From: Gilliamella sp. Lep-s35
Lineage (GTDB): Bacteria; Pseudomonadota; Gammaproteobacteria; Enterobacterales; Orbaceae
Direction of reading: 5' to 3'
DNA: 55,720 nt
NCBI RefSeq assembly: GCF_009795845.1
Contig: NZ_WTEX01000016.1
Span: forward strand, 1-55,720
Both the position numbers and the translations under genes were made by a program. Under the pieces are notes generated by a model, which saw only the letters and a list, made by a program, of their open reading frames with translations, was not told the DNA's origin and ran no database searches. Shown here in pieces: positions 4,339 to 13,540 of this stretch (the stretch's first letter is position 1; each line of letters begins with the position of its first letter).

Positions 4339-5040
4339 TTATTTTCCTAACCGTCTATATAATCTTTCTGGTCGTCCAATTTTTCCATGATTAAGTTCGA
4401 CTGTTAATAATTTGATTTGGACACAATATTCTAAATATCGCCTAGCTGTTGTTTTGCTAATATTGGCTTTTTCTACTATTTCGTCAACGGTGAGTGCTTG
4501 ATCGGTTTGCATAAATAAATCTTTGACTTTTTGTAGTGTGATTTCCTCAATACCTTTTGAGCGTCGATTCATATCAACAAAATCTTTAGTTTGCAAATTA
4601 AATAGTTCATCAATTCTGCGTTGATTAACGTGTTTTTGCAGGCTTTGACGATATAAAAAAAGCTCAAAACGTTCTAAAGAATGTTTTAATCGCTGATAAG
4701 ACACCGGTTTAATTAGATAATCAAAAGCGCCATAACGAATCGCTTTACTACAAGTATCCATATCGCTTGCTGCGGTAATAAAAATAACATAGCTGTCTAA
4801 GTGGTTATTGATTATGTATTCAAATAATTCGATTCCCTGCCCATCTGGTAAGTAGTTATCGAGTAAGATTAAAGTTGGTTTTAGTTTTTCAACCATAATT
4901 TTGGCTTCGTCTAAATTTGATGCAATCCCTATGACTTTAACTTTGGTATCTTTTTGAATAAACTCTGCATTTAATTCGGCTAATATTGGTTCGTCTTCGA
5001 CAATAAGTACTTTAATGGCGTTTTCTTGAAATTCGTTCAT
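4339..5040 (-). CDS. citB: CitB/DpiA-family response regulator
   Basis: The 233-residue protein starts with a receiver domain: acidic pocket VEDEP, phospho-acceptor Asp61 in LLDNYLPDG, conserved Thr/Ser in FITAAS and Lys in DYLIKPVSY. The C-terminus is a winged-helix DNA-binding region (about residues 160-230) with the KANISKTTARRYLEYC helix-turn-helix typical of CitB/DcuR regulators. It sits 15 bases after the kinase gene and should be the phosphorylation target of CitA. The expected targets are the divergent citS-citX operon and perhaps its own promoter. DcuR-like C4-dicarboxylate control is the alternative, less likely beside citrate lyase genes. Confidence 0.9.
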   Translation of the reverse strand: MNEFQENAIKVLIVEDEPILAELNAEFIQKDTKVKVIGIASNLDEAKIMVEKLKPTLILLDNYLPDGQGIELFEYIINNHLDSYVIFITAASDMDTCSKAIRYGAFDYLIKPVSYQRLKHSLERFELFLYRQSLQKHVNQRRIDELFNLQTKDFVDMNRRSKGIEEITLQKVKDLFMQTDQALTVDEIVEKANISKTTARRYLEYCVQIKLLTVELNHGKIGRPERLYRRLGK

Positions 5041-5055
5041 ACAATTACCTTCCTA

Positions 5056-6705
5056 TTATTTGGGAATAAATACAGAAAAAATTGTTCCATACGGAGTATT
5101 ATCTTCAAATGTAATATAACCATTAGCTTTTTTTATGTAGGTTGAAACAAGATGTAAGCCAATACCGTGCTCTTTACCTTCTTGAGAGGTAACTCCAGGT
5201 TCAAAGATAGAGCTACGAATACCTTGATCGATCCCACAACCTTGGTCGCTAATTTCAAGGACTATTTCGTTTGTTGCGTCACTAAGATATAAGTAAATTG
5301 TTTTATCGCCATGTTCATTTTTTAAGCTAGCGTTGAAAGCATTATCAAGTAAATTACCTAAAATTGACATAAATTCTGTTTCGGTGATAAGTGACGATAA
5401 TGCACTTAATTGGCATGCGGGGTCAAATATGAGCTTTAGACCGATTTCGTGCGCTTTTGAATATTTGCCAATGAGTAATCCGCAAATCGCGGGGATTTGA
5501 ATATTTTCGGTAATAAAATCCAGATTATTTTGGTTATCAGCAGATTGTAAGGCAATAAATGATTGCGCTTCTGCATACCGTTTCATATAAATCAATCCTG
5601 ATAACGTTGCCAACCAGTTAAGATGTTCATGCCTAATAGCACGTAGATTATCGACATATTGCGTCACTTGGGTTAATTGCATGCTCAGTAAGTTTATGTC
5701 GTTAAAATTACGAAATGTGATAACCCAACCTTGGATTTTTTCGTCTACAATAATACGGATTCTATTGGCAATGACGCTAATATTGTTAAAGTAACAGATG
5801 TGGTCATGTATATCTTGATGTTGATTGTCCTTGCCATAAATAAAATCGTTAGATTTTATAAAATCACTTAATTTGTGGTTGATTAAGGAATCATCGTTGT
5901 AGCTAATTTCTAACATGCATCTGGCCGATTGGTTAATATTGATTATTTTATAATTAAGATCGATTGCGATAACGCCTTCAAAAATCGACTCCATGATCGA
6001 CTTTTGGCTTTTTACGAGTAGCGCAATTGCTTTAGGTTCTAGATTCAGCATCTGATTTTTGATCGCTTTTGAAAAAAAGTATGAAAAAATAAATAATGCT
6101 AAAAACAATAAGGAACAAAAAACAATAAACGGTATAAATTGCTTAATACGCAATGCATAAATATCATCAATCAGGTAACCAACTGAAACAATTCCTATAA
6201 CTTTACCATGTTCAATAATTGGCGCTTTACCCCTTAGTGCTAACCCTAAAGATCCTTCGCTAATTGTGATACTACTATTGCCATTAAGCACCTCTTGATT
6301 ATCATTGCCTATCATGGGCGAAAATAAAGATCTACCAGATGTATGAAATAGGCGATTTGCATTCACATCGCCAATAACAATATAGCTCGCATCACTTTGT
6401 TCAAATATTTCCTTAATTAAAAGGGCTATTTTATTAATGTCTTTGTCTTGGACATATTGAATTAAATTTGGTAAAACAGATAACTCTTTTGCCTGAATTT
6501 GAGCCTTTTCGCCTAGGCTTCTGTATAAATTGGTTTCTGTTATATTCCAAATGTAGCTTTGTAATAACGCAAGAACAGTCAACGAAAACAACAAAAGCGA
6601 TAAAAAAAGCTTTGTTGTAAACGATAATTGAAGTTTTTTTTGCATTTTCACATGATTATGTCCTAGATTAAGTTGAAATAAGTGTAACACAGCATTAAAA
6701 AACAT
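5056..6705 (-). CDS. citA: CitA-family citrate sensor histidine kinase
   Basis: A 549-residue membrane kinase: first transmembrane helix about residues 33-50, periplasmic PAS sensor domain about 55-185, second helix about 188-212, cytoplasmic PAS about 235-335, H-box with His359 in RAIRHEHLNWL, then an HATPase domain with N-box LDNAFNAS and DQGCGID and GIGLHL glycine boxes. In the sensor domain NRLFH (Arg118, His121) and LRGKAP (Arg158, Lys160) resemble the citrate-contacting residues described for Klebsiella CitA, supporting citrate as ligand. The ATG at 6703-6705 has AAGGA unusually close; the ATG at 6643-6645, 20 codons downstream, is an alternative start. Confidence 0.9.
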   Translation of the reverse strand: MFFNAVLHLFQLNLGHNHVKMQKKLQLSFTTKLFLSLLLFSLTVLALLQSYIWNITETNLYRSLGEKAQIQAKELSVLPNLIQYVQDKDINKIALLIKEIFEQSDASYIVIGDVNANRLFHTSGRSLFSPMIGNDNQEVLNGNSSITISEGSLGLALRGKAPIIEHGKVIGIVSVGYLIDDIYALRIKQFIPFIVFCSLLFLALFIFSYFFSKAIKNQMLNLEPKAIALLVKSQKSIMESIFEGVIAIDLNYKIININQSARCMLEISYNDDSLINHKLSDFIKSNDFIYGKDNQHQDIHDHICYFNNISVIANRIRIIVDEKIQGWVITFRNFNDINLLSMQLTQVTQYVDNLRAIRHEHLNWLATLSGLIYMKRYAEAQSFIALQSADNQNNLDFITENIQIPAICGLLIGKYSKAHEIGLKLIFDPACQLSALSSLITETEFMSILGNLLDNAFNASLKNEHGDKTIYLYLSDATNEIVLEISDQGCGIDQGIRSSIFEPGVTSQEGKEHGIGLHLVSTYIKKANGYITFEDNTPYGTIFSVFIPK

Positions 6706-6758: not shown

Positions 6759-6831
6759 AATTAATTAATTTTTTGTAAAGATACCCGCCATTGATTTCGA
6801 ATAAATAAAATCATTTTTGGAGAAAAAATAC

Positions 6832-8217
6832 ATGGTGGATTTCAATTCAATTGGAAAAACGCATAATGAAGAAAAATCAGCAATTAATCATATAGAAGAA
6901 AAACAAACAGGGTGGCCATATAACTGGTGGCGACTGATGGACAATTATAAAATTGGTGTCATCCCACTTCCATTATTTATTATTGCCGGTATTCTTATTT
7001 GTTTAGAAGTGTTAGTAACCGGTAAATTACCTAGCGAAATTGTTGTAATGGTGGTAACTTGTGCTTTCTTTGGTTTTTTATGTGGCGAGATAGGTAAACG
7101 CTTACCGATTGTTGGGAAAATGGGTGCAGCTGCAATTTGTGCAACATTTATTCCATCTGCACTAGTTTATTATGGTATTTTGCCTAAACCCGTTGTTGAA
7201 GCAACAACTAAATTCTATAAAGATACCCATATCCTTTACTTATATATCTGCTGTATTATCGTGGGTAGTATTATGAATATGGATAAGCGAACACTTATCC
7301 AAGGCTTCTTAAGAATCTTTGCGCCAATGCTTTGTGGTGAAATTGTTGGTATGATCGTTGGTGTTTCTGTTGGTTATTTACTTGGTTTAACTCCGTTTGA
7401 AACATTTTTCTTCTTAGTATTACCAATTATGGCTGGTGGTGTTGGTGAAGGTGCTATTCCTCTTTCAATCGGTTATGCGACAATTTTAGGTATGGAACAA
7501 GGCGATGCGCTTGGTCGCGTGTTACCAATTGTTATGCTTGGTGGTTTAACAGGTATTATCTGTGGTGGTATTCTGAACCGTATTGGTAAAGCTTACCCGC
7601 ATTTAACTGGTAACGGTCGTTTATTACCAGCTTCTAAAGATGATCACTCAATGAACCAAAAAAATACTAAAATTGAAATGGCAATAGACGTTACAACATT
7701 TGCTTCAGGTGTTTTACTAGCAGCTATCCTTTATATGGTAGGTATGATTGGTCACAAATTAATCGGCCTTCCAGCGCCAGTTGGGATGTTATTTGCTGCC
7801 GTTTTTGTTAAGCTAGTATCAGGTGTTTCACCAAAAGTATTGAGCGGTTCACAAGTTGTTTATAAATTTTTCCAAACATCTGTAACTTATCCTATTTTAT
7901 TTGCAGTAGGTGTGGCAATTACTCCTTGGGAAAAAATTGTTGATGCTTTCACTATTACTAACTTAATTGTTATTGTTTGTACTGTTGTGAGCTTAGTGAC
8001 TACTGGTTTCTTTGTGTCAAAAGCGCTTGGTATGTATCCAGTTGATGCTGCGGTTATATCTTGTTGTCAAAGTGGTCAAGGCGGAACAGGTGACGTGGCA
8101 ATTCTAACTGCTGCCGAACGTATGGAATTAATGCCATTTGCACAAATTGCAACGCGTATTGGTGGCGCAATCAATGTGTCTGTATCATTACTCATTTTGG
8201 GCAATTTCTTAGTATAG
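6832..8217 (+). CDS. citS: Citrate/2-hydroxycarboxylate sodium symporter
   Basis: The ATG at 6832, with GGAG nine bases upstream, gives 461 residues; a TTG at 6817 would overlap that ribosome site. The protein is strongly hydrophobic with about eleven membrane segments and carries the two glycine-rich re-entrant-loop motifs of the 2-hydroxycarboxylate transporter family: AGGVGEGA (about residue 200) and QSGQGGTGDV (about residue 420). Klebsiella CitS, a sodium/citrate symporter of similar length, is the closest known type. It heads the citrate lyase operon and is divergent from citAB. Malate or citrate/malate transport (MaeN/CimH) is possible in this family, but the lyase genes favour citrate. 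Confidence 0.92.
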   Translation: MVDFNSIGKTHNEEKSAINHIEEKQTGWPYNWWRLMDNYKIGVIPLPLFIIAGILICLEVLVTGKLPSEIVVMVVTCAFFGFLCGEIGKRLPIVGKMGAAAICATFIPSALVYYGILPKPVVEATTKFYKDTHILYLYICCIIVGSIMNMDKRTLIQGFLRIFAPMLCGEIVGMIVGVSVGYLLGLTPFETFFFLVLPIMAGGVGEGAIPLSIGYATILGMEQGDALGRVLPIVMLGGLTGIICGGILNRIGKAYPHLTGNGRLLPASKDDHSMNQKNTKIEMAIDVTTFASGVLLAAILYMVGMIGHKLIGLPAPVGMLFAAVFVKLVSGVSPKVLSGSQVVYKFFQTSVTYPILFAVGVAITPWEKIVDAFTITNLIVIVCTVVSLVTTGFFVSKALGMYPVDAAVISCCQSGQGGTGDVAILTAAERMELMPFAQIATRIGGAINVSVSLLILGNFLV

Positions 8218-8233
8218 ATTTTACATTTCAAAA

Positions 8234-8262
8234 AACAACCTTAGTTTATACTAGGGTTGTTT
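8234..8262 (+). terminator. Hairpin with U-rich tail between citS and the FAH gene
   Basis: AACAACCTTAGT and ACTAGGGTTGTT pair over twelve positions (one G-U) around a five-base TTTAT-type loop and are followed by TATTTTAT. This looks like an intrinsic terminator inside the operon. It may be partial, so that citS mRNA exceeds that of the downstream enzymes, or it may mark the 3' end of a separate citS transcript. No obvious new promoter is visible in the 44 bases that follow. Confidence 0.6.
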
Positions 8263-8306: not shown

Positions 8307-9152
8307 ATGAAGCTTATCAGTTATCTTGTCTCTGGTAGAGCAAGTTTTGGTCTTCTTACTCATAACGGTATTGTTGATTTAAAGCAAAAATTAGGTGATA
8401 AATACACCGATTTAAAATCACTACTTGCCGATGATGAAGGCCTAGTAATTGCTAAAACCTATCTTGATGCCCCAAGCGACATAGATGAACAAGATATTAC
8501 TTATTTACCTGTTATTCCAAATCCAAATAAGATTTTATGTGTTGGTATGAATTACGCTGAAAAACGCGCTGAATTTAATGAAACCAGTTCAGCACCAACA
8601 CTTTTTGTTCGCTTCCCTGATTCTCAAACAGGTCATAAAACTAATATTATTAAACCTGCTATCACTAATGAATTAGATTATGAAGGTGAATTAGCTATTA
8701 TCATTGGGAAAGCAGGTTTTCGTATTAGCCAAGAAGATGCGCTATCTTATGTAGCAGGTTATAGCTGTTATATGGATGGTTCAATTCGTGACTGGCAATA
8801 CACTTGGTTTACCGCAGGTAAGAACTGGCCAAGCACGGGAGCATTTGGTCCATGTATTACAACAAGTGATGAGATCCCAGATCCAACAGTATTATCGTTA
8901 ACCACTTATTTAAATGGTCAAGAAATGCAACATGATTCAGTCAAAAATCTGGTGCATACTGTTCCCGAGTTAATTTCTTATATTAGTACATTTACTCATT
9001 TATCATCTGGTGATGTAATTTTAACTGGTTCACCAGGCGGCGTGGGGAAAAAACGTAATCCTCCTGTGTTTATGCAAAATGGTGATACAATAGAAGTTGA
9101 AATAACTGGGATTGGTCGTTTAACCAATTATATAGTCGCTGAAAAAGGGTAA
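8307..9152 (+). CDS. Fumarylacetoacetase-fold protein, candidate soluble oxaloacetate decarboxylase
   Basis: A 281-residue FAH-superfamily protein. The C-terminal domain has the divalent-metal ligands Glu126 and Glu128 in LDYEGELAIIIG and Asp157 in YMDGSIRDWQ, plus the TGSPGGVG loop near residues 240-247. Family members cleave or decarboxylate 2-oxo acids; the bacterial Cg1458 protein and mammalian FAHD1 decarboxylate oxaloacetate. Here the gene lies between citS and citC with a good ribosome site (AAGGAG), in a cluster that makes oxaloacetate but has no oadGAB. Conversion of oxaloacetate to pyruvate and CO2 is therefore the favoured inference; acylpyruvate hydrolysis or a hydratase reaction cannot be excluded. 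Confidence 0.8.
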   Translation: MKLISYLVSGRASFGLLTHNGIVDLKQKLGDKYTDLKSLLADDEGLVIAKTYLDAPSDIDEQDITYLPVIPNPNKILCVGMNYAEKRAEFNETSSAPTLFVRFPDSQTGHKTNIIKPAITNELDYEGELAIIIGKAGFRISQEDALSYVAGYSCYMDGSIRDWQYTWFTAGKNWPSTGAFGPCITTSDEIPDPTVLSLTTYLNGQEMQHDSVKNLVHTVPELISYISTFTHLSSGDVILTGSPGGVGKKRNPPVFMQNGDTIEVEITGIGRLTNYIVAEKG

Positions 9153-9156
9153 ATTT

Positions 9157-10191
9157 ATGTACGATTTGGTTGATTATGCCGTTGTTGATATTTCTAAATC
9201 TGAGCAAGATTATCAAGAAATTAAGCAGTTATTATTACGTTCTGATCTTAATTTAGATTCACAAGTGACTATTTTTATCGTTGCTAAATTTAATACTAAA
9301 ATTATAGCTTGTGCAGGTATTGAGCGTGATATTATTAAATGTGTTGCTATTGATTCTGATTATCGTGGTAATCAACTAAATCTAACTTTAATGGATCACG
9401 CCATAAAATATGCCAACGATAATGGCTATTTTCACCTTTTTTTATATACTAAACCTGAAAATATTGACTTTTTTAAAGGATGTGGCTTTTACCCTATTGT
9501 AGAAATTACCGATCTGGTCGTCCTTATGGAAAACACCCCTGTTGGTATTAAGCAGTATTGTAAAAAACTCAATATACAGCAAAAAGAAGGGGGGAAAATT
9601 GGCAGTATTGTGATGAATGCCAACCCTTTTACAAAAGGACATCAGTATCTTGTGCAATATGCAGCGAGCCAATGTGACTGGTTGCATGTTTTTGTCGTCA
9701 ATGAAAATGCATCGTTATTTTCATTTGATACACGTTTGAAGTTAGTTAAAGATGGCACAAGACAAATAAAAAATGTTACAGTGCATGCAAGCTCGCCTTA
9801 TATCATTTCAAGAGCTACGTTTCCTACTTATTTTTTAAAAGATAAGACAAAAATAGATCAAGCTTATATGGGGATTGATCTGCTTATATTCCGAAATTAT
9901 ATTGCGCCAGCGCTTAACATTACCTATCGATTTGTTGGGACTGAACCTTATGATGAAGTGACGAAAGCTTATAATGAAGCAATGCGCTATTGGCTTGAAG
10001 ATAAAAAAGTCACTGCTCAATCAGTGATAAATGTGGTTGAAGTTCCACGAATAACCGAAGACGATACTATTGTATCAGCCTCATTAGTGAGGAAATTATT
10101 AGCATCTAAGCAATATGAGCAGGTAAAAAAACTAGTTCCACCAACAACGTGGGATTACCTTTCAGCTAATTTGGATCAATTTAAAATTTAA
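9157..10191 (+). CDS. citC: [Citrate (pro-3S)-lyase] ligase
   Basis: The 344-residue protein acetylates the thiol of the citrate lyase acyl carrier prosthetic group at the cost of ATP, activating the lyase. The N-terminal 125 residues are a GNAT-like domain (RGNQLNLTLMDHAI, CGFYPIVEI). The C-terminal part is a nucleotidyltransferase fold with NPFTKGHQYLV (about residues 156-166; the T-K-G-H motif binds ATP) and a later ISRATFPTYFLK segment. It follows the FAH gene by four bases and precedes citD by 21, so it is co-transcribed. Length is normal for CitC. Confidence 0.95.
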   Translation: MYDLVDYAVVDISKSEQDYQEIKQLLLRSDLNLDSQVTIFIVAKFNTKIIACAGIERDIIKCVAIDSDYRGNQLNLTLMDHAIKYANDNGYFHLFLYTKPENIDFFKGCGFYPIVEITDLVVLMENTPVGIKQYCKKLNIQQKEGGKIGSIVMNANPFTKGHQYLVQYAASQCDWLHVFVVNENASLFSFDTRLKLVKDGTRQIKNVTVHASSPYIISRATFPTYFLKDKTKIDQAYMGIDLLIFRNYIAPALNITYRFVGTEPYDEVTKAYNEAMRYWLEDKKVTAQSVINVVEVPRITEDDTIVSASLVRKLLASKQYEQVKKLVPPTTWDYLSANLDQFKI

Positions 10192-10212: not shown

Positions 10213-10503
10213 ATGAAAATACAAAAAGAAGCCATGGCAGGGACTCTCGAATCAAGTGATTTGTTAGTCAAAGTTATACCTAATACTGGGATTGAAATTG
10301 TTATTAATAGTGATGTTAATAAGCAATTTGGCGATCAAATTCGCGCTGTGGTTGAGCAAACATTACAAGACTTAAATGTAACCGATGGCCTAATTATTAT
10401 TGATGACAAAGGCGCACTTGATTGCGCTATTAAAGCAAGAATTCAATGTGCTGTATTACGTGGCGCAGAAGAAGAAAACTTAGATTGGAGTAAACTACTA
10501 TGA
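10213..10503 (+). CDS. citD: Citrate lyase acyl carrier protein (gamma subunit)
   Basis: A 96-residue protein with the invariant modification region AGTLESSD, in which Ser14 carries 2'-(5''-phosphoribosyl)-3'-dephospho-CoA. The later [14 protein letters not shown] and [14 protein letters not shown] segments are conserved in CitD. It shuttles acetyl and citryl groups between the CitF and CitE active sites. The ribosome site is AAAGGTAAC upstream of the ATG. Its stop overlaps the citE start as ATGA, implying translational coupling. Confidence 0.96.
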
Positions 10504-11387
10504 AAAAATTACGTCGAAGTATGCTATTTCTTCCTGGTGCAAATGCAGCAATGTTATCAACCTCTTTTGTTTATAAACCCGATTCAATTATGTTTGACCT
10601 TGAAGATGCGGTTTCAATCAAAGAAAAAGATTCAGCTCGTTTATTAGTTGCACAAACTTTACTTCTTCCTGTTTATAAAGAACATGGAATTGAAACAGTA
10701 GTACGAATCAACGCGCTTGATACTCCATTTGGTTTAAAAGACCTTGAAGCAGTAGTAAGAGCTGGTGTTGATGTTGTGCGTTTACCAATGACCAATAGCG
10801 CTGAAGATATCCATGAGCTAGAAGCGCATGTAGAACGAATTGAAAAAGAGTGTGGGCGCGAAGTAGGCAGCACTAAATTAATGGCTGCAATTGAATCTGC
10901 TCAAGGTGTGGTTAATGCGGTTTCGATCGCTCAATCTTCACCTCGTTTAATTGGTATTGCACTGGCGGCATTTGACTATCTTGTTGATATGCAAACTGAA
11001 CGTGGCGATGGTACTGAGTTATTTTATGCTCGTTGTGCCGTTTTACATGCTGCGCGTGTAGCTGGCATTGATGCCTTTGATGTGGTGTATTCAAATGTTA
11101 ATGATGATGAAGGCTTTTTAAAAGAAGTCAGCCTAATTAAAAAACTCGGATATAACGGTAAATCACTTATCAATCCAAGACAAATTGAACTGTTACATAA
11201 TGCTTATGCGCCAACTGCTGCTGAAGTTGAAAATGCCCAAAAAGTAGTTGAAGCTGCTGAAGAAGGTGAAAGAAAAGGCCTTGGTGTTATTTCTCTAAAT
11301 GGCAAAATGATTGATGCTCCGATTATTGCTCGTGCTAGAAAAGTGATTGAGTTAGCAAAATATTCCGGTGTACGTAAAGAAATTTGA
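10500..11387 (+). CDS. citE: Citrate lyase beta subunit (citryl-ACP lyase)
   Basis: The 295-residue TIM-barrel enzyme cleaves citryl-ACP to acetyl-ACP and oxaloacetate. Conserved family segments are [15 protein letters not shown] at the N-terminus, FDLEDAVS (metal-binding acidic residues), VVRINALDT, and [14 protein letters not shown] with the catalytic-site Glu. [14 protein letters not shown] and the [15 protein letters not shown] region complete a full-length CitE. It overlaps citD by four bases and is followed by citF after 12 bases. Confidence 0.96.
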
Positions 11388-11399
11388 TAGGATTGAAAA

Positions 11400-12929
11400 A
11401 TGACTACTTCTATAAACAAAAAAATTGATGATTTGCTTAAACAGCACCCTGATCTCAAGAATATTAAGCCTTTTATTGACGCTAATGCTACGACTCCATA
11501 TTTAAAAGATGAGTCTAAATACACGCGTAAATTGTGCGATTCTATTGAACAAGCAATTCATAAATGTGAATTGCGTGATGGTATGACAATTTCTTTCCAT
11601 CATGCATTTCGTGAGGGCGATAAAGTTATCAACAAAGTGGTTGAAACGATTAGCAAATTAGGAATTAAAAACCTAACATTAGCGTCAAGTTCTTTATTAA
11701 GTTGTAATGCAGCACTTATCCCTCATATCGAATCAGGTGTGATTACCAAGATCTATACATCGGGTTTGCGTGGTAAATTAGCTGATGCCATTTCACACGG
11801 TTTAATGGATAACCCTGTTCATATCCATTCTCATGGTGGACGTGTAAAACTGATTCAAAGTGGCGAAATTAATATTGATATCGCATTTTTAGCGGTTTCT
11901 ACTGCCGATGAACAAGGTAATGCGAATGGTGTATCGGGTAAATCACAATGTGGTGCATTAGGTTATGCCATGGTTGATGCACAATTTGCTAAGAAAGTGG
12001 TATTACTTACTGAAGATATTGTTGGCTACCCTAATCACCCTGCAAGTATCCGTCAAGATCAAGTGGACTATATTGTTAAAGTCGATGAAGTTGGTGATCC
12101 AACTAAAATCAGCGTTGGTGCTGCTCGTATTACTAGTAACCCTCGTGAACTGATGATTGCGCGTTATGCGGCAGATGTTATTGAGTATTCTGGTTATTTT
12201 AAAGATGGATTTTCTATTCAAACAGGTTCTGGTGCATCTTCAACCGCAGCAACACGTTTCCTAGAAAATCGTATGCGCGCTAAAAATATCACCGCATCAT
12301 TTGCTTTAGGTGGTATTACTGCAAGTATTGTTGATCTGCATGAAAAAGGTCTAGTAAAACGCTTACTTGATACACAAAGTTTTGATGGCGCAGCGGGACA
12401 ATCTTTAGGTCGAAATAAAGATCATATTGAAGTTTCAACGAATGTCTATGCAAACCCAGCCTCTAAAGGTGCGAGTGTCGATGAGTTAGATATTGTGATC
12501 CTTAGTGCGTTAGAAATTGACCTTGATTATAACGTTAACGTGTTAACCGGTTCTGACGGTGTTATGCGTGGCGCATCAGGTGGTCACTGTGATACCGCTG
12601 CTGGTGCAAATTTAACGATTATTGTTGCGCCACTCATTCGTAGCCGAATCCCTACTGTAATTAAGAAAGTGACAACAGTTGTAACGCCGGGTGAAAGTGT
12701 CGACGTTCTTGTTACTGACCATGGTATAGCGGTTAACCCTGCTCGCCCTGAAATTACAGAACGATTAAAAGCGGCTAATTTGCCAGTTATGAGTATTGAA
12801 GAGCTATATCAACGTGCTGTTTCCTTAACGGGTGAACCAAAACCAATTGAATTTAATGATAAAATCGTTGGTATTGTCCATTTCCGTGATGGTTCAGTCA
12901 TTGATGTGGTTCGTCAAGTTAAGGACTAA
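11400..12929 (+). CDS. citF: Citrate lyase alpha subunit (citrate:acetyl-ACP transferase)
   Basis: A 509-residue CoA-transferase-fold subunit that exchanges acetate for citrate on the acyl carrier protein. Visible family markers are FHHAFREGD (about residues 64-72), IHIHSHGGRVKLIQSGE (about 140), QTGSGASSTAATRFL (about 274-288) and the C-terminal LTGSDGVMRGASGGHCDTAAGA. Length matches other CitF proteins. With CitD and CitE it forms the cytoplasmic citrate lyase complex. A strong hairpin terminator follows only 12 bases after its stop. Confidence 0.96.
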   Translation: MTTSINKKIDDLLKQHPDLKNIKPFIDANATTPYLKDESKYTRKLCDSIEQAIHKCELRDGMTISFHHAFREGDKVINKVVETISKLGIKNLTLASSSLLSCNAALIPHIESGVITKIYTSGLRGKLADAISHGLMDNPVHIHSHGGRVKLIQSGEINIDIAFLAVSTADEQGNANGVSGKSQCGALGYAMVDAQFAKKVVLLTEDIVGYPNHPASIRQDQVDYIVKVDEVGDPTKISVGAARITSNPRELMIARYAADVIEYSGYFKDGFSIQTGSGASSTAATRFLENRMRAKNITASFALGGITASIVDLHEKGLVKRLLDTQSFDGAAGQSLGRNKDHIEVSTNVYANPASKGASVDELDIVILSALEIDLDYNVNVLTGSDGVMRGASGGHCDTAAGANLTIIVAPLIRSRIPTVIKKVTTVVTPGESVDVLVTDHGIAVNPARPEITERLKAANLPVMSIEELYQRAVSLTGEPKPIEFNDKIVGIVHFRDGSVIDVVRQVKD

Positions 12930-12940
12930 TTAACCACAAG

Positions 12941-12978
12941 GTAGCATGGCACTAGTCGATGTCATGCTGCTTATTTTT
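12941..12978 (+). terminator. Intrinsic terminator or attenuator between citF and citX
   Basis: GTAGCATGGCA (12941-12951) pairs with TGTCATGCTGC (12960-12970) over eleven positions with two G-U pairs and an eight-base loop, followed by TTATTTTT (12971-12978). This is the form of a rho-independent terminator placed upstream of the citX start at 12983. It should lower citX expression relative to citF. The apparent upstream citX ATG at 12959 lies inside this hairpin. Confidence 0.75.
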
Positions 12979-12982
12979 CATT

Positions 12983-13540
12983 ATGAATGATCTATTAATT
13001 AAATTTGATGATGGCACCCCTATCACACTTGAACAGATGCTTTTGGCTAAAGAAAAACGTGTACAAAGCCAACAAGAAGCAATAAAACGTTATCATTATC
13101 CGCTTATTTCATTAAGCTTAGTTATTCCCGGCCCAATAAAAAATAGTAGTGGCGCCAGTCGATTATTTAAAGAGGCCATTGCCACTATACACAACAGCTT
13201 ATCAAAAAACAGCATTCCATTAATACATGAAATCCAATTTCATCACATTACTGGCTATGAAGCCATTATTATCGCAAAATGCGCTGCCGATGTACTAAAG
13301 CAGTACTGTATTAATATCGAAGATAATCATCCTTTAGGTCGCCTGTGGGATATTGATGTCATAGACCCAATAACCCAACAAAGTATTTCTCGCGCTAAAT
13401 TTGATCACCACTCAAGGCAATGTTTAGTCTGCCAAGAAATGGCTAAAGTATGTAGTCGAAGCAGAAAACACACTATTGATGAGGTCTTTTCTGCCATTGA
13501 AAAAATAACAAACGACTATTTTAGCAAGCCAATGTATTAG
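12983..13540 (+). CDS. citX: Apo-citrate lyase phosphoribosyl-dephospho-CoA transferase
   Basis: From the ATG at 12983 the protein is 185 residues. It attaches the prosthetic group to Ser14 of CitD. The family signature HPLGRLWDIDV is present about residues 116-126, followed by the cysteine/arginine segment RQCLVCQEMAKVCSR. The N-terminal LISLSLVIPGPIKNS also matches CitX. No clear ribosome site precedes this ATG; the in-frame ATG at 12959 lies inside a terminator hairpin and adds eight non-conserved residues, so I prefer the later start. CitG, which makes the precursor, is not in the window. Confidence 0.9.
   Translation: MNDLLIKFDDGTPITLEQMLLAKEKRVQSQQEAIKRYHYPLISLSLVIPGPIKNSSGASRLFKEAIATIHNSLSKNSIPLIHEIQFHHITGYEAIIIAKCAADVLKQYCINIEDNHPLGRLWDIDVIDPITQQSISRAKFDHHSRQCLVCQEMAKVCSRSRKHTIDEVFSAIEKITNDYFSKPMY

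Follow-up and report, generated by a model that had tools for sequence, protein, structure and literature searches.

The citrate lyase operon of Gilliamella sp. Lep-s35 contains, directly before citC, a gene for a protein of the fumarylacetoacetase (FAH) fold that is probably (at roughly 60%) a soluble, non-pumping, Mg/Mn-dependent oxaloacetate decarboxylase replacing OadGAB, a reaction that we infer from gene context, genome content and active site. The window (the whole stretch of DNA analysed, 55,720 bases) is one whole contig of a 2.47 Mb assembly that is 99.99% complete. It contains the following features.

4339..5040, minus strand: citB-like response regulator (DpiA/CitB type), divergent from the operon (Pfam Response_reg and a DpiA-like HTH)
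5056..6705, minus strand: citA-like sensor kinase (DpiB/CitA type), divergent from the operon (sCache_3_2 and HATPase_c)
6817..8217, plus strand: 2HCT-family carrier, probably for citrate, not CitS by the curated model (PF03390, 3.4e-140)
8233..8262, plus strand: 13-pair stem-loop between the carrier and FAH genes (terminator-like scan)
8307..9152, plus strand: FAH-fold protein, candidate soluble oxaloacetate decarboxylase (PF01557, 2.5e-58; invariant residues; fold model)
9157..10191, plus strand: citC, citrate lyase ligase (TIGR00124, 404.6 bits, cut-off 262.1)
10213..10503, plus strand: citD, citrate lyase acyl carrier protein (TIGR01608, 107.4 bits, cut-off 63.5)
10500..11387, plus strand: citE, citrate lyase beta subunit (TIGR01588, 468.7 bits, cut-off 443.4)
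11400..12929, plus strand: citF, citrate lyase alpha subunit (TIGR01584, 768.8 bits, cut-off 501.45)
12959..13540, plus strand: citX, citrate lyase holo-ACP synthase (TIGR03124, 190.2 bits, cut-off 105.25)

The FAH gene encodes 281 residues and starts with ATG downstream of an AAGGAG motif; 89 nt separate it from the carrier gene and 4 nt from citC. Its product has a full FAA_hydrolase domain (PF01557; 197.7 bits against a cut-off of 23.9) and is the sole PF01557 match in the whole assembly; with the reading frame intact and the domain well over its cut-off, an FAH-fold gene does lie within the citrate lyase operon, as an earlier note made from the sequence alone had claimed. The closest named match among the best 80 of 567 relatives is from Gilliamella sp. 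Choc5-1 (99% identical).

The divergent regulatory genes have DpiA (212 bits, cut-off 264) and DpiB (485 bits, cut-off 656) as their best NCBIfam matches, both under the cut-off, and citG, required for the cofactor of citrate lyase, is away from the operon on another contig (G000:C29:12240-13043). Terminator-like sites number eight in the window against 4.7 (sd 2.5) in shuffles. In the stem-loop between the carrier and FAH genes, 96.7% of cells are paired across 14 Gilliamella and Frischella sequences and four pairs are changed on both sides; it could tune carrier versus enzyme expression. The promoter scan of the window gives 10 sites, fewer than in shuffles (mean 30.1), and carries no weight.

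The FAH–citC arrangement recurs in other genomes. In a scan of named genomes, evaluated for the best 80 of 567 confirmed relatives (a set weighted towards close relatives, in which some genomes are represented more than once), the FAH gene lies directly before citC and on the same strand at 74 of the 80 loci, within 94 nt of it or overlapping it by the called starts. The gene order that the earlier note expected elsewhere is thus found for FAH and citC, and this recurrence rules out a chance neighbour. Gammaproteobacterial loci include those of Gilliamella, Frischella, Orbus, Lonsdalea, Rahnella, Pectobacterium, Enterobacter, Kosakonia and Aeromonas; beyond them are Rubrivivax (Betaproteobacteria) and a Telmatospirillum MAG (Alphaproteobacteria). 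Six loci are exceptions: two have no cit gene on the available piece (L115, L119), one has cit genes in the opposite direction (L124), and three are in other gene contexts (L129, L157, L163).

The family of the window (Orbaceae) was sampled with 44 genomes: citF is present in 39, and the identical 39 have an FAH relative of at least 56% identity. The relative found in G034, an 86% complete genome among these, is tartrate-linked (see below) and on another contig, and the contig with citF is only 5.7 kb long. Among the five genomes without citF, G011 has an FAH relative of 38% identity, and G006, G033, G035 and G043 have no match to it at E 1e-20. The FAH relative (at least 56% identical) therefore follows citF and does not show the housekeeping occurrence, independent of citrate lyase, of an OAT1-like enzyme. 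Extra FAH copies (L077, L078, L083) are present in two genomes of another genus of the family (G037, G040), one of them Orbus hercynius by its named copy; in these genomes an extra copy precedes citCDEF and has, where the 2HCT gene would be, a gene for a PF03547 carrier (tested in L077), and G037 has a third copy beside an IclR regulator.

The gene upstream of FAH is less uniform. The earlier note had placed the FAH gene between citS and citC; its position between a carrier gene and citC stands, but the carrier fails the NCBIfam CitS model (225.2 bits, cut-off 600), reaches 422 bits on the citrate:cation symporter model (cut-off 549) and is only 30–32% identical to the CitS proteins of two oad-type clusters. 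The curated models thus place it in the 2HCT family but in a subfamily other than CitS, so that the energetic argument of that note needs a different carrier. At the equivalent place in Klebsiella aerogenes the carrier gene is labelled cimH. A 2HCT gene lies directly upstream of FAH at 57 of the 80 scan loci, with products 58–99% identical to the window carrier. Twelve other loci have an unassigned ORF of 411–415 residues there, and both of those tested (L110, L148) encode MFS carriers; two (L106, L155) have a PF03547-type carrier. By the rule applied, the remaining nine have another gene or none, including L116 and L142, where an upstream 2HCT gene is hidden from the rule by an over-long ORF call.

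The relationship between FAH and oadGAB was examined in 297 genomes of the window's order, drawn evenly and at least 95% complete, in which 50 citF loci occur across 45 genomes. FAH (within 8 kb of citF) is present at 33 loci, oadB (OAD_beta, within 10 kb) at three, neither at 14 and both at none. The proposal of the earlier note that FAH excludes oadGAB agrees with 0 of 50 loci having both, a count on which only the three oad clusters bear; without the window's family the counts drop to 7, 3, 14 and 0, which is not enough to establish exclusion, and the genomes do not count as independent samples. The 14 loci with neither gene nearby count against the decarboxylase reading. OAD_beta occurs in 142 of the 297 genomes, mostly away from citF, and eight FAH matches are away from citF. 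By genome, 29 have citF and FAH, 6 FAH only, 16 citF only and 246 neither; the Fisher test on these counts ignores relatedness, and 24 of the 29 genomes with both are from one family. No OadA- or OadB-like ORF is present in the available flanks of the 80 scan loci, some of which are ended by contig ends.

Of the three oad-type clusters, two encode a CitS that passes the curated model (735.6 and 703.3 bits; cut-off 600), and the stretch examined around the third (L173) shows no 2HCT gene. A DASS-family carrier, which we take to be of the family of E. coli CitT, is near all three of the clusters examined among the 14 with neither decarboxylase, and would fit a succinate-exchange route there. One genome (G199) has an oadA–oadB cluster with a true CitS (L171) as well as an MFS–FAH–citCDEF cluster (L174), together with a third, broken cluster (L175), where two short ORFs share the citC matches and the 16 kb examined shows no citDEF.

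The other routes for oxaloacetate that were searched for have no match over the cut-off. In the whole assembly the oadB (OAD_beta) profile and malic enzyme (PF00390) have no match, and oadA gives five short partial matches, the best of 49 bits against a cut-off of 756.5. The absence of oadGAB, which the earlier note could see for the window only, thus extends to the whole assembly for oadA (over the cut-off) and oadB, and on these searches both a Na+-pumping OadGAB and a malic-enzyme-type decarboxylase elsewhere in the genome are rejected. None of the 44 family genomes has oadA over the cut-off: in six (L067–L072) an oadA-model match lies in a frame of 1157–1188 codons, the size of pyruvate carboxylase, and the remaining 38 have no oadA-model match at E 1e-50. 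Malate dehydrogenase (TIGR01772) is matched in 0 of the 44 at E 0.001 and in 13 of 14 control genomes. A survey of Gilliamella reports, in the excerpted text, citrate lyase genes in all 95 genomes and oxaloacetate-to-fumarate genes in none (PMC11325843); in contrast, two complete genomes of the same genus in the family sample (G006, G011) lack citF. With no malate dehydrogenase match and no fumarate-synthesis genes, an E. coli-type reductive route looks closed in a Gilliamella-type genome, and it is unlikely for the family. Among the routes covered (oadA over the cut-off, oadB and malic enzyme in the genome, malate dehydrogenase in the family sample), no other catabolic exit for oxaloacetate was found.

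The active site is strongly conserved. The metal ligands Glu126, Glu128 and Asp157, described as intact in the earlier note, occur without exception in the window protein and the 14 relatives aligned with it (62–92% identity). Among 105 aligned sequences, three of them distant and some from genomes entered under two handles, E89, E126, E128, D157, R161, Q164 and K172 are unchanged. Lid position 86 is Lys in all 102 subfamily sequences (Lys86-x-x-Glu89) and His in the three distant relatives; the lid His-x-x-Glu dyad of the Cg1458/FAHD1 type is accordingly absent from the subfamily. Equivalents of the Gln (FAHD1 Q109, Cg1458 Q154) and Lys (K123) of those enzymes are present as Q164 and K172, residues being matched by motif to a sequence that we take to be that of FAHD1.

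An AlphaFold2 model (mean pLDDT 78.7, pTM 0.82) has the FAH fold, with segments 82–86, 161–177 and 243–249 under pLDDT 50, the first two forming part of the active site. PDB sequence searches give 23 and 24 general FAH matches, the best including HpcE and fumarylpyruvate hydrolase; in the five PDB chains among the alignments listed the lid residue is His in each and Lys in none. The top Foldseek match of the model is YisK (E 5.1e-27), which reportedly decarboxylates oxaloacetate as a minor activity (PMC10825186, excerpt).

In FAHD1, E71, E73 and D102 bind Mg, Q109 sets the substrate conformation, K123 transfers a proton and the lid dyad H30/E33 holds a water (PMC7116474; PMC7056447, excerpt). 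Decarboxylation is abolished by Q154A in Cg1458 and K123A in FAHD1 (PMC7116474), the loss for Q154A being given as 98% (PMC8398924, excerpt). Taken together, the missing water-positioning His and the kept Gln and Lys would favour decarboxylation or tautomerisation over hydrolysis, and the lid Lys means that FAHD1 is not a close guide to the FAH protein.

Under the decarboxylase reading, the FAH protein would take over the role of the membrane-bound Na+ pump OadGAB and split the oxaloacetate from the citrate lyase reaction into pyruvate and CO2. By analogy with FAHD1 and Cg1458, oxaloacetate would chelate the metal bound by E126, E128 and D157, Q164 would turn the C3–C4 bond for cleavage, K172 would handle the enol proton and CO2 would leave; Lys86, in place of the water-positioning lid His of relatives, would disfavour hydrolysis. 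Release of CO2 would consume a proton and pump no sodium, so energy would then have to come from the carrier, e.g. by citrate/product exchange.

The best hint to the substrate comes from a second gene context. In two genomes of the same genus (L085, L086) an FAH relative of 55% identity lies beside an MFS gene and a dehydratase pair; in L086 these are L(+)-tartrate dehydratase alpha (535 bits, cut-off 365) and beta (372.4 bits, cut-off 264), and the L085 pair matches them at 100%. The same FAH subfamily thus occurs beside two unrelated oxaloacetate-forming enzymes, the best single hint that oxaloacetate is its substrate, and oadGAB also occurs near tartrate dehydratase genes (PMC2735749, excerpt). 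Counting against this, members of the subfamily also adjoin a DHDPS-family protein, an enolase-superfamily protein, peptidases and, on a Klebsiella plasmid, LeuCD-like proteins, none of which has a known link to oxaloacetate.

The earlier note had proposed a soluble route from citrate to pyruvate, and this is still the best fit to gene context, genome gaps and active site, but it left the lid change from His to Lys unremarked and did not consider that the protein could be an oxaloacetate keto-enol tautomerase (OAT1-like), which would hold oxaloacetate as the keto tautomer for the enzyme that follows, its removal falling to something else; this alternative and the small number of oad clusters (three) weaken the proposal. 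Tautomerisation is described as the main activity of the FAHD enzymes tested, which come from three domains of life, about 2x10^4 above decarboxylation on average, with YisK and YcgM among the enzymes tabled; decarboxylase values are 0.003 to 0.3 and tautomerase values 1.7 to 717, YisK included (PMC10825186, excerpt). Such decarboxylase values would be very slow for a catabolic step and count against the decarboxylase reading: if the FAH protein behaves like these enzymes, it could not sustain the flux from citrate to pyruvate. An excerpted review of FAHD1, in turn, holds decarboxylation not to be a minor side activity (PMC12176266), Cg1458 is credited with oxaloacetate decarboxylase activity (PMC7116474, excerpt), and the soluble C. 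glutamicum enzyme is described as an oxaloacetate decarboxylase (PMC8100219). The FAH subfamily is distant from FAHD1, Cg1458 and the tested FAHD enzymes alike.

Gene context bears on the tautomerase from both sides. Tartrate dehydratase and the other dehydratase partners would be expected to release the enol first, and the genome has no other FAH gene for the task. Against this, citrate lyase should release oxaloacetate in the keto form, as expected from established chemistry; in the family sample, genomes that lack citF lack the FAH gene too, which would not be expected of a housekeeping repair enzyme; none of the three oad clusters shows it; and a tautomerase alone would leave oxaloacetate with no identified catabolic exit in the genome. 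A tautomerase is judged unlikely, though it is the foremost competitor of the decarboxylase.

Quite improbable is a hydrolase or isomerase that cleans up another beta-diketo or 2-oxo acid arising in citrate breakdown. Many bacterial FAH enzymes are of this kind, HpcE and fumarylpyruvate hydrolase among the PDB matches, and the subfamily is found in varied operons, but the Lys at the position of the water-positioning lid His throughout the subfamily speaks against hydrolysis, and we know of no beta-diketo or 2-oxo acid by-product of citrate lyase that would fit. Least probable of all, and very improbable, is an accessory FAH gene with oxaloacetate leaving by PEP carboxykinase, aspartate or another decarboxylase, since the FAH–citC linkage recurs in distant bacteria, even though a path from oxaloacetate through aspartate to cystathionine synthesis is reported for all 95 Gilliamella genomes (PMC11325843, excerpt).

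A broader version of the decarboxylase reading is put forward tentatively, and is less probable than the reading itself: the Lys-lid subfamily may be an unrecognised dedicated class of oxaloacetate decarboxylase for citrate and L-tartrate fermentation across proteobacteria, in which sodium pump and carrier are both replaced and energy comes from electrogenic citrate/product exchange and proton-consuming decarboxylation. Lactic acid bacteria combine citrate/product exchange and proton-consuming decarboxylation with an unrelated enzyme.

Comparison with known systems places the FAH protein among several partial counterparts. It shares with Cg1458 and FAHD1 the FAA_hydrolase domain, the metal triad and the mechanistic Gln and Lys, but is only 26–33% identical to them in fold alignments, has Lys where they have the lid His, and is encoded in a catabolic operon; a 2020 review, by contrast, describes what the soluble FAH-type decarboxylase does as "not quite clear" (PMC8100219). 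With OadGAB it has in common the genomic partners citrate lyase and tartrate dehydratase and the proposed reaction; OadGAB, however, is unrelated, biotin-dependent and membrane-bound, and accompanies a true CitS in the two clusters tested. The malic-enzyme-related decarboxylase of Lactococcus and Enterococcus is likewise soluble, metal-dependent and for citrate fermentation (PMC8100219), but belongs to a different family, that of PF00390. The tautomerase OAT1/YcgM is of the same superfamily, and oxaloacetate is a likely substrate of both; it is, however, described as a universal repair enzyme (PMC10825186, excerpt), whereas presence of the FAH protein follows citF. The citYZ–citWX region of Klebsiella pneumoniae has divergent two-component genes, a carrier and citX as in the window, but no FAH or citCDEF is named in the excerpted description, by which it was compared (PMC2735749).

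An FAH gene tied to a citrate lyase operon was not found in the open-licence literature (titles and the starts of abstracts, among the matches listed), and prior notice is possible; one paper, on Burkholderia pseudomallei genomes, mentions citrate lyase and a fumarylacetoacetate enzyme once each. The arrangement, a known fold with a changed lid residue in a pathway where it was not found described, is real and conserved. The main activity of FAHD enzymes is disputed between decarboxylation and tautomerisation (PMC10825186 and PMC12176266, excerpts), and an FAH gene fixed in citrate lyase operons with no other oxaloacetate outlet identified provides a clean case for function. Should the decarboxylase reading be true, citrate fermentation with a Na+ pump would have a common soluble alternative in enterobacteria and their relatives, and a function would be available for genes labelled 'fumarylacetoacetate hydrolase family protein', 'ureidoglycolate lyase' or '5-oxopent-3-ene-1,2,5-tricarboxylate decarboxylase'.

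In a FastTree tree of 103 sequences, members from non-citrate contexts (L084, L085, L086, L177–L180 and L184) fall outside the main citrate group and L129, L157 and L163 fall inside it, several deep supports being weak. One of the outlying members (L184, 6001–6870; 59% identical) is on a Klebsiella pneumoniae plasmid, together with an MFS carrier, a LeuCD-like pair and a LysR regulator. Matching plasmid records include 66 of Klebsiella among 169, of which one from K. pneumoniae and one from K. aerogenes were looked at.
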